A stretch of 37,042 nt of DNA, from contig JACRPZ010000002.1 in assembly GCA_016222905.1 (NCBI GenBank), forward strand, positions 69,874-106,915, read 5' to 3'. The notes beneath the pieces are model-generated. The model worked only from the letters and a program-made list of their open reading frames with translations, searched no databases and was not told where the DNA came from. Shown here one piece after another: positions 23,502-29,861 of this stretch (position 1 is its first letter; each line of letters begins with the position of its first letter). This stretch comes from Nitrospirota bacterium. Lineage in GTDB: Bacteria; Nitrospirota; Thermodesulfovibrionia; UBA6902. Position numbers and translations under genes: made by a program.

Positions 23502-23705
23502 ATGAGAGCAACGATATCTCCCAAATATCAGGTGGTGATACCGCGTGAACTTCGTGAATCCATGCACATCAAGCCGGGCGAAAAGGTAGAGTTCCTGCAG
23601 TATGAAAATAGAATCGAGATGATCCCTGTCAGGAACATAAAAAAGATGCGGGGTTATCTCAAAGGGATTGACACGACAATTGAAAGAGAAAAGGACAGGG
23701 TATGA
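23502..23705 (+). CDS. AbrB/SpoVT-type antitoxin (VapB-like)
   Basis: 67 residues. The N-terminal swapped-hairpin motif is clear: ATISPKYQVVIPRELRESMHIKPGEKVEFL, followed by a short toxin-binding tail (YLKGIDTTIEREKDRV). It would bind DNA and neutralise the PIN-domain RNase encoded by the next gene, which it overlaps by 4 nt (ATGA). A good Shine-Dalgarno (GGAGG) lies 6 nt upstream. Confidence 0.88.
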   Translation: MRATISPKYQVVIPRELRESMHIKPGEKVEFLQYENRIEMIPVRNIKKMRGYLKGIDTTIEREKDRV

Positions 23706-24076
23706 ACCTCGTTGATTCCTGCGGATGGCTTGAGTATTTTGCCGACGGGCCAAATGCCGGATTCTTTGCAGGGGCGCTCGAAAATCAGGAGAAACTGATT
23801 GTGCCGACCATCTGCATTACCGAAGTATTTAAGCGTGTGCTTCAGCAGCGAGGGGAAGACGCAGCGCTTCATGCCGCGGCTCTAATGCAGCAGGGAAATA
23901 TTGTGGTTTTGGACAGCGCGATAGCTGTTGAAGCTGCGAGACTTGGCTATAAACATAATGTTTCCCTAGCCGACGGAATCATTCTGGCAACAGCATATAT
24001 GAATAAAGCCGTTATCTGGACGCAGGATGCGGATTTCAAAGAATTGAAAGACGTTAAGTATAAGAAAAAACAATAA
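23702..24076 (+). CDS. PIN-domain ribonuclease toxin (VapC-like)
   Basis: 124 residues. The metal-binding acidic residues of PIN nucleases are all present: D5 in NLVDSCGWLEY, E41 in ICITEVFKR, D91 in SLADGIILATA, and D109/D111 in TQDADFKEL. Toxins of this family typically cut tRNA or rRNA; the target here is unknown. It overlaps the antitoxin gene by 4 nt. The pair lies in the AT-rich accessory zone but is itself closer to chromosomal composition. Confidence 0.88.
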   Translation: MNLVDSCGWLEYFADGPNAGFFAGALENQEKLIVPTICITEVFKRVLQQRGEDAALHAAALMQQGNIVVLDSAIAVEAARLGYKHNVSLADGIILATAYMNKAVIWTQDADFKELKDVKYKKKQ

Positions 24077-24115
24077 GGCGCAAGGGAACACAACTTTACT
24101 CTGCGCGCAGGTTTC

Positions 24116-24145
24116 TTGACACTCTTCTTTGAGAGAAGATATATT
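24116..24145 (+). promoter_or_regulatory. Sigma70-type promoter of the TPP riboswitch
   Basis: TTGACA (24116-24121) and TATATT (24140-24145) are separated by 18 bp, placing the transcription start at about 24152, right at the start of the aptamer. It lies 40 nt downstream of the vapC-like stop codon. Confidence 0.6.
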
Positions 24146-24149
24146 TTAA

Positions 24150-24245
24150 TTACCCTGGGGGAGGCATCAGCCTGAGAGTTCCCGAAGTTTCGAGAAGACC
24201 CCGCGAACCTGAACCGGATAATGCCGGCGGAGGAAAGGGATGGTA
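24150..24245 (+). ncRNA. TPP riboswitch (THI element) aptamer
   Basis: The conserved TPP-aptamer landmarks occur in order and spacing. A GGGGGAGGC stretch is followed by CCTGAGAG (pyrimidine sensor helix, CUGAGA), a variable stem-loop (CCCGAAGTTTCGAG), then CGAACCTGAACCGGATAATG and CCGGCGGAGGAAAGGG (pyrophosphate sensor side). P1 can form between TACCCT (24151-24156) and the AGGGATGGTA end. The 3' P1 strand can instead pair with the 5' arm of the terminator hairpin downstream, which gives a normal off-switch logic. No thiamine gene, indeed no plus-strand gene at all, follows for 5 kb. Confidence 0.92.
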
Positions 24246-24254
24246 GGATCATTC

Positions 24255-24302
24255 ACCGTATTCCTTTAGGTTCAATACAAGGGATACGGTTTTTTGTTTT
24301 TT
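24255..24302 (+). terminator. Rho-independent terminator of the riboswitch expression platform
   Basis: ACCGTATTCCTT (24255-24266) and AAGGGATACGGT (24279-24290) form a 12-bp stem with one G-U pair and a 12-nt loop. TTTTTTGTTTTTT follows. The 3' arm mimics the 3' P1 strand of the aptamer (AGGGATGGT), so the 5' arm can pair with either. Confidence 0.9.
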
Positions 24303-24320
24303 AAAGAAAGTGGCAGAGAG

Positions 24321-24342
24321 ACAAAGGCACAGAGGCACAAAG
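24321..24342 (+). repeat. Short octamer repeat downstream of the riboswitch
   Basis: ACAAAGGC, ACAGAGGC and ACAAAG run in tandem at the point where a thiamine gene would be expected to begin. It is a low-complexity tract; similar AGGCACAGAGGCAC runs occur as dispersed repeats in other bacteria. The rest of 24303-24393 shows nothing recognisable. Confidence 0.45.
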
Positions 24343-24393
24343 TTTCGACGGGTGATTGTAAAGATGCCGTTATCGGACTTCTGTTAGCAGATA

Positions 24394-24834
24394 TTAAGGA
24401 ATTTGGGATAAGTAATTATCAACTGATATCATATCCTGCTGAGCAGAATATGACTGCCCTGGTTTTCCTGAATTATTGCCAAGAAGTTGAAGGATTTTTT
24501 TGTTCAGGACACTAAACTTAAAAGGTTTTTCAATGACATGCCTGACTCCAAGCTCCCGAACTCTCTCGTTAATATTATCACTCATTAAACCTGTCATTGC
24601 AATTGTCCGGATGTAAGGATGCTTCTCACCTATGTAGGTCAAAAGCTTAAAACCGTCCATTACAGGCATCTTTAAGTCTGTTAAAACCAGATCCACATTT
24701 GCAGACTTAAGCACGTTTACCGCCTCAGCCCCGTGTTTAGCCGTAAGAACCTTTAGACTGTTGCTGCCAAAATATTTTGAAGAGAATAAAAGTATCAATT
24801 CATCATCATCAACTACCAGCATGGTTTTTTTCAT
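24394..24834 (-). CDS. Single-domain response regulator (CheY-like receiver)
   Basis: 146 residues, a receiver domain with no output domain. Catalytic residues: acidic triad D9-D10-D11, phospho-acceptor D53 (LTDLKMP), T81 (AMTG) and K103 (EKPF). Residues beyond ~122 are a short unstructured tail. No histidine kinase is in the window, so partner and output are unknown. AGAGG lies only 1 nt from the first ATG; the next in-frame ATG (residue 5) would have better spacing. Read-through from the TPP riboswitch would be antisense to this gene. A remnant of a Fis-type HTH lies upstream on the same strand. Confidence 0.88.
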   Translation of the reverse strand: MKKTMLVVDDDELILLFSSKYFGSNSLKVLTAKHGAEAVNVLKSANVDLVLTDLKMPVMDGFKLLTYIGEKHPYIRTIAMTGLMSDNINERVRELGVRHVIEKPFKFSVLNKKILQLLGNNSGKPGQSYSAQQDMISVDNYLSQIP

Positions 24835-24949
24835 GCCTCTTTAAATGCAAGAGCAATGCCAGATTAAAAAAATGAGATAAATTAGGTAGTTGACACTTTA
24901 AAATAGACAAAACCAGATTTTTTGAACGGTCTTTTTTGAACCATCCGGT

Positions 24950-25078
24950 TCATTTCAGACCATAGTCCCTGATTTTCCTTTTAAGAATGGAAAGTGCAAT
25001 ATCGATAGCATTTGCTGTCTTTACGAGGTTGCCTGAAAGCCTCTCAAGCACAGATTTATTCAAATCTTCTTTTGTGAT
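24950..25078 (-). pseudogene. Remnant of a Fis-type HTH (C-terminus of an NtrC-family regulator)
   Basis: A 42-codon open stretch without a good start ends at a TGA at 24950-24952. Its C-terminal part (LERLSGNLVKTANAIDIALS then ILKRKIRDYGLK) matches the pattern of the Fis helix-turn-helix that closes sigma54-dependent response regulators (G-N-x-x-x-A-A near the start, then L-x-R-K-x-x-x-Y-G-L). The sigma54 AAA+ domain expected upstream is absent; its place is taken by a small membrane protein gene in another frame. I read this as what is left after a deletion. Confidence 0.5.
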
Positions 25079-25236
25079 TCAAAGTCTGAAAATGCCCAGT
25101 AACCTAAAATAATTAAATTTATCGGAGAAATAACTGACAATATTCCAAAAAGAATAGGGTTCTTATCATGCTTGGCTGCTATTTTCCCGAAGCATACTGC
25201 AACATATATGATTACAAGAAATCCGATAATCCACAT
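25060..25236 (-). CDS. Small membrane protein, two transmembrane helices, unknown function
   Basis: 58 residues from the ATG at 25236: a helix at residues 2-18 (IIGFLVIIYVAVCFG), a charged loop (KIAAKHDKNP) and a second helix at about 29-50. The ATG is preceded by AAGGAGG at 8-nt spacing, a strong Shine-Dalgarno that supports it as a real gene; a TTG two codons earlier is less likely. The 3' end overlaps the Fis-type remnant in another frame, so its C-terminus may have been set by the rearrangement. No family recognised. Confidence 0.55.
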   Translation of the reverse strand: MWIIGFLVIIYVAVCFGKIAAKHDKNPILFGILSVISPINLIILGYWAFSDFESQKKI

Positions 25237-25281
25237 ATTCAATACCTCCTTATTGATTGCCGTTTAAATACATTCTTGCTG

Positions 25282-25674
25282 TTACCATCTCAAAGTTAAT
25301 ATCTCTGAATCCTTATCCATTCTCCATGTGTGCTCAAGGTCTTCACGCCAGATCGCGTAATCACCTTCATTAATCAGCCTGACCTCTCTTCGCTCTTCGT
25401 GATTATCAGTTTTACGAAATATAAACGTAAAATCCCCCCTGATAAGTATGCTCATGGCTGTCTTGTCGGAACTTGACGCCCACACATCCCGCAGTTCGCC
25501 TTTTTTGTATATCCCCCACTTAATTTCTATGTCATCTGTGTTTCGAAGGCCATATCGCTTCGCGTCAAAGGGGATATTATTTTCTTTGCACCACTTTTCT
25601 ATCCGGCCCACAAACCAAAAACTGAAATCCCTGCCGTCTTTTTTTGTGTTGCCTGTTGTGATGTCGTCTAACAT
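25282..25674 (-). CDS. Small cupin-like protein
   Basis: 130 residues. The pattern DGRDFSFWFVGR, IEIKWGIYKKGELRDVWA, MSILIRGDFTFIF, INEGDYAIWREDLEHTWRMDKDSEILTLRW fits a single small cupin barrel. The closing GDY-x-x-W ... H-x-W ... T-x-R-W resembles a family of short cupin-like proteins often mislabelled signal peptidase I in databases; no peptidase motifs are present. The enzymatic role, if any, is unknown. No clear Shine-Dalgarno. It lies 51 nt upstream of the aspS stop codon's downstream side, on the same strand, and is more likely an independent gene than an aspS partner. Confidence 0.6.
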   Translation of the reverse strand: MLDDITTGNTKKDGRDFSFWFVGRIEKWCKENNIPFDAKRYGLRNTDDIEIKWGIYKKGELRDVWASSSDKTAMSILIRGDFTFIFRKTDNHEERREVRLINEGDYAIWREDLEHTWRMDKDSEILTLRW

Positions 25675-29501: not shown

Positions 29502-29861
29502 ATGGGAAAATTGTCCAATAAACTCCTTGCAACATTTCTAATTTGCGCTTTATTTATCATTTCTCCCCCTTCAGCATCCCACGCTGACCCCTACTCCGAA
29601 ATAGAAGGTAAGCTCAAGGAAGGGCAGACTAAAGAGAAGATCATAGAATTACTCGGAAAACCGCTTGCGAAGAAGATCATTATCAAAAGCAGCAGATTTA
29701 TCTGGGGGCCTGAGGAGGAATTTTGGGATAAAATACCTATGGAAACGCAACTGGAAGTCTGGGAATATCAGTTTTCAGACGGGCATCTGAACCTCTACTT
29801 CATCAATGCGGGAGATCGCCTCGATTATAAAGCCTTTGCTCCGAAAGGTGTTGTTTATTAA
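29502..29861 (+). CDS. Small exported protein with BamE/SmpA-like fold
   Basis: 119 residues with a signal peptide (about 1-28, cut near SHA-DP, no lipobox cysteine). The mature part has the order seen in BamE/SmpA-like proteins: a helix pair E-G-K-L-K-E-G-Q-T-K-E-K-I-I-E-L-L-G-K-P, then strands with EVWEYQFSDGHLNLYFI. Members are envelope proteins, often outer-membrane assembly or inhibitor-like. It is transcribed alone on the plus strand, divergent from 28510-29313 across a 188-nt gap. The Shine-Dalgarno is weak. Confidence 0.6.
   Translation: MGKLSNKLLATFLICALFIISPPSASHADPYSEIEGKLKEGQTKEKIIELLGKPLAKKIIIKSSRFIWGPEEEFWDKIPMETQLEVWEYQFSDGHLNLYFINAGDRLDYKAFAPKGVVY

Follow-up and report, generated by a model that had tools for sequence, protein, structure and literature searches.

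Genes around the riboswitch

The window analysed here is a stretch of 37,042 nucleotides in which a TPP riboswitch, equipped with a promoter and a terminator, lies on the plus strand between a vapBC-like toxin–antitoxin pair and a convergent response regulator gene. The toxin–antitoxin pair (23502–24076, plus strand) is directly upstream on the same strand, and comprises a MazE/AbrB-type antitoxin (23502–23705; PF04014, E = 3.3e-10) and a PIN toxin (23702–24076; PF01850, E = 4.4e-14). The riboswitch block starts 39 nt past the vapC stop codon. On its other side, 92 nt past the T-run of the terminator, is a receiver-only response regulator on the minus strand (24394–24834), whose receiver domain is genuine (PF00072, E = 6e-22), as originally predicted. 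No close relative of this response regulator was found in 36 family genomes.

No convincing plus-strand gene was detected by ORF and Pfam analysis in the approximately 5 kb downstream of the terminator, and the next sizeable plus-strand candidate is at 29502–29861, in agreement with the earlier claim that the downstream gene is missing. The small plus-strand ORFs at 24294, 24487 and 24500 were considered as hidden small proteins 3' of the terminator, and were rejected as none had a Pfam match. An apparently degraded stretch (24846–25282) lies between the response regulator and a small unknown gene and includes a weak Fis-type HTH fragment (24950–25063). The "Fis-HTH remnant" previously named at 24950 amounts to this weak match, with an E-value of 0.065, under the cut-off.

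Aptamer, promoter and terminator

An Rfam search of the whole window returned a single match, to the TPP riboswitch family RF00059, at 24147–24252 on the plus strand (E = 9.9e-10). The match spans the full model (positions 1–105) and its score of 60.9 bits exceeds the gathering score of 54.3 bits, confirming the presence of a full THI aptamer. The conserved TPP core (CUGAGA and the GAACCUGAA region) is kept, without a single difference at the 65 columns that are invariant among relatives. By sequence, then, the element is a TPP aptamer. As a gene-control element it has no demonstrated target, since there is neither a sense gene nor a thi remnant downstream, and no gene of thiamine synthesis or transport is controlled in cis. 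This sets it apart from the RF00059 leaders of the family, which it otherwise resembles: TPP riboswitches with a transcription-terminator platform, found before thiH or thiS-G-E, have the same core, promoter design and terminator/antiterminator logic.

The promoter, TTGACA-N18-TATATT (24116–24145, plus strand), confirms the sigma70 promoter of the original prediction: it has a perfect −35 box at 24116, matches the consensus at 11 of 12 positions, and ranks best among 11 sites in 3 kb. The intrinsic terminator (24255–24301, plus strand) has 12-nt arms (24255–24266 and 24279–24290) separated by a 12-nt loop and followed by T6GT6. The arms and T-run are as previously described, but the proposed 12-bp stem is not fully paired: 11 of the 12 positions pair. 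A terminator scan misses this site because the loop is longer than 8 nt. When the 3' terminator arm was left out, the minimum free energy fold joined the aptamer's 3' half (GAACCUGAA...GGAGG) to CCUUUAGGUUC, which lies in the 5' arm of the terminator and in its loop. An alternative pairing of the predicted kind was thereby recovered, although it involves more than the 3' P1 strand, to which it had been ascribed.

The copy in the window is probably still transcribed and terminated. Judging from the sequence and predicted folds, its own promoter would drive transcription, and binding of TPP would end the RNA at a length of about 150 nt. In the absence of TPP, formation of the antiterminator would let the polymerase continue into DNA that is non-coding and antisense.

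The hairpin of the block is the only terminator-like site detected between vapC and the response regulator. The block could be viewed as a co-opted terminator, placed on the same strand shortly after vapC, that ends vapBC transcription and insulates it from the convergent response regulator, with TPP sensing being incidental. However, a plain insulator would not need the strong promoter that the block has kept, and we regard such co-option as unlikely.

Origin of the leader

By blastn, the segment 24116–24345 (plus strand) is a copy of the leader of the thi operon on another contig, C62 (51873–51644, minus strand), with 216 of 231 columns matching (94% identity, E = 4e-95). This operon, in the order riboswitch, HydG/ThiH-type radical SAM gene, thiG, thiE, thiC, is the only intact thi operon found in the genome. 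The homology begins exactly at the −35 box TTGACA and ends within an octamer repeat without reaching the thiH start codon; therefore, the leader was copied without the gene. By whatever mechanism, the segment that begins with the −35 box and runs into the octamer repeat past the terminator was copied into the space between the vapBC-like pair and the response regulator gene. The riboswitch thus lacks a gene because it is a copied piece of the C62 leader, made up of promoter, sensor and terminator. By comparison with relatives, C62 is the ancestral place of the leader, since the C62 copy heads the thi genes, and in those relatives thiH follows a leader of the same design.

The original prediction had considered that a thi gene was deleted at this site. 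This does not agree with the extent of the block, which stops 5' of thiH, or with the intact operon on C62; moreover, searches of the 37-kb window by blastn with the C62 thi region and by tblastn with ThiH, ThiG, ThiE and ThiC found no thi remnant, but only the leader block. A related possibility is that leader and genes were duplicated together, after which a deletion with one end in the octamer repeat removed the genes. On its right side the homology does stop in a dispersed repeat, a plausible deletion point, but the sequence that follows there does not belong to the octamer repeat, and the 37 kb contain no homology to the thi genes or to the DNA upstream of the leader, making a larger duplication improbable.

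The block is flanked by a direct repeat, GTTTC, at 24111–24115 and 24342–24346. This pair might represent a target duplication or microhomology, but is a weak indication of either, because four of the five bases also occur where the C62 homology ends on the right. The octamer repeat noted originally is real and dispersed across the genome. The arm in the window (CAAAGGCACAGAGGCACAAAG; 24315–24345, plus strand) was copied along with the leader. On C62, an inverted octamer pair lies between the riboswitch terminator and thiH. The corresponding leader of genus g10 has no such repeat, and it is therefore most likely that the repeat entered the leader before the copying took place, as judged from the alignments. 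Repeats of the CAAAGGCACAGAGGCACAAAG type (L035–L060) occur in numerous intergenic regions, often arranged in inverted pairs. REP-type transposition was considered as the copying agent, and the genome has three Y1 transposase genes, but a link between these and the octamer repeat was not demonstrated.

TPP switches in related genomes

In the family genomes examined, a single TPP switch precedes thiH, with the same promoter–aptamer–terminator plan. Elsewhere in the class, the switch precedes thiS, thiG or thiE and, in two loci, an apparent Thi4-type gene. The comparison with relatives called for by the original prediction thus showed one switch per genome, ahead of thi genes wherever checked, and the arrangement seen in the window in this genome only. 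No second copy was found in any of the 36 other family genomes; the genome of the window is the sole representative of its genus in this comparison. A search of the genome contigs with FtsA for a sister species gave a best match of 58% identity, too distant to be of help. TPP matches were obtained in 189 of the 206 genomes of the class, and only three (G000, which is the genome of the window, G074 and G075) have two copies. In G074 and G075, the genes behind the copies are thiG, and thiS-thiE-thiC. Because the other two-copy genomes have both copies before thi genes, the orphan copy is unique to this genome in the sample of 206.

Six genomes (G012, G020, G029, G030, G041 and G044) have TPP matches of 32–45 bits, under the cut-off, and thiH is in the same locus as the match in G012, G020, G041 and G044. 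These low-scoring matches are possibly divergent aptamers.

The synteny flanking the copy is not shared by the relatives. A conserved site beside ftsZ was considered and rejected: in relatives, ftsZ is followed by differing genes, and the response regulator was not detected. The lack of synteny, together with an assembly (2.84 Mb) in 90 contigs and a reported contamination of 1.53%, would fit a binning or assembly artefact in which part of the contig comes from another organism. We consider this highly improbable: the block and the C62 leader carry the same octamer arm, the repeat is scattered over many contigs, and the window also contains a dcw cluster whose FtsZ is 79% identical to that of family members.

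Divergence of the two copies

Alignment with relatives placed changes at 24144, 24193, 24243, 24247 and 24296 and an insertion at 24244 on the orphan copy, while C62 is the more probable site of the spacer changes at 24124 and 24129. Most of the polarisable changes are thus on the stray copy. The −10 box is TATATT in the window as against TATACT in C62 and most relatives. The linker that follows the aptamer (GAAGAATCATTCACC) is common to C62 and genus g10, whereas the window copy has one insertion and two substitutions there. The change at 24193 (plus strand) is from G in C62 to A and breaks a base pair in P3; because the alignment of relatives is poor across the P3 loop and arm, the broken pair is a stronger reason than the outgroups for placing this change on the orphan. 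The predicted folds of the orphan are weaker than those of C62, at −28.3 versus −35.9 kcal/mol for the aptamer and −14.9 versus −18.6 kcal/mol for the terminator.

The orphan changes spare the aptamer core and the terminator stem. Differences between the two copies are found at none of the 65 invariant columns, compared to 13 of the 121 others (Fisher p = 0.005), a value that mixes constraint on both copies and to which constraint on C62 contributes part. When only the six orphan-derived changes were counted, the deficit at conserved columns did not reach significance (P = 0.08–0.16); it would do so if all ambiguous changes were put on the orphan branch (P = 0.004–0.012). With approximately 6% divergence and yet no change at an invariant column, some selection or gene conversion may be acting on the orphan. 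Nevertheless, it is unlikely that the orphan has kept a regulatory role, considering the lost P3 pair, the weaker folds, the response regulator without a close relative in the family, and the non-significant deficit at conserved columns for the assigned changes.

Function of the copy

A new TPP-controlled antisense RNA had been proposed as one possibility, with read-through at low TPP running antisense to the response regulator gene. Such an RNA would pair with the response regulator mRNA and reduce its expression. The geometry permits this. The promoter, aptamer core, terminator and antiterminator pairing are intact, read-through would run antisense to the convergent response regulator, and no plus-strand terminator is predicted from there to 25801. 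In Listeria, the antisense RNA AspocR, controlled by a B12 riboswitch, lowers the expression of pocR (PMC8079631), a precedent for a working arrangement of this type. Both there and in the window, a riboswitch and terminator lie upstream of DNA that is antisense to a convergent regulator gene. However, AspocR has a link between ligand and target and a demonstrated effect, whereas the effect in the window is a prediction, and its target is unrelated to thiamine and has no close relatives in the family. The arrangement occurs in only one of the 206 class genomes, and P3 and the terminator are weakened. Conservation, target and selection thus give the antisense proposal no support, and we consider a functional antisense RNA of this kind very unlikely. 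There is hardly a better case for the broader possibility that the duplicated riboswitch was captured as a free-standing, TPP-controlled RNA, either non-coding or antisense, with the response regulator or vapBC as its target and its core under selection. The short terminated RNA predicted from the window copy resembles SreA and SreB of Listeria, terminated riboswitch RNAs that act in trans, but the riboswitch in the window differs in having no gene in cis.

The stray copy most likely represents an evolutionary relic rather than a new regulator. We find it likely that it arose from the thiH-thiG-thiE-thiC TPP riboswitch by a lineage-specific duplication of the leader alone, and that it is slowly decaying and regulates nothing of weight; at most, this probable relic might also terminate transcription in the interval that separates vapBC from the convergent gene. 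The original prediction, made without knowledge of the C62 copy, is thereby upheld for the aptamer, promoter, terminator and missing gene, but not for the deletion or the antisense RNA. Among the papers searched on duplicated and standalone riboswitches, none described a leader-only TPP copy like this one. The case shows that a whole riboswitch leader can be copied as a unit minus its gene, with the donor still in the genome. It also cautions that a regulated target is not proven by a convincing set of aptamer, promoter and terminator alone.

Thiamine genes downstream of the family switches

The "ThiH" of the family thi operon (C62, L103:8292–9599) scored above the cut-off for HydG (TIGR03955, 419 bits) and below the cut-off for ThiH. 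The C62 protein and those of two relatives (L089 and L102) have a C-terminal CX2CX22C motif, which is typical of HydG. To judge from these matches, ThiH appears to be replaced by a HydG-like enzyme in the thiamine synthesis of this family. In one family of the class (L005 and L007), the gene behind the TPP switch resembles a Thi4-type thiazole synthase by eye (MEKKIFSDVGEKE...).
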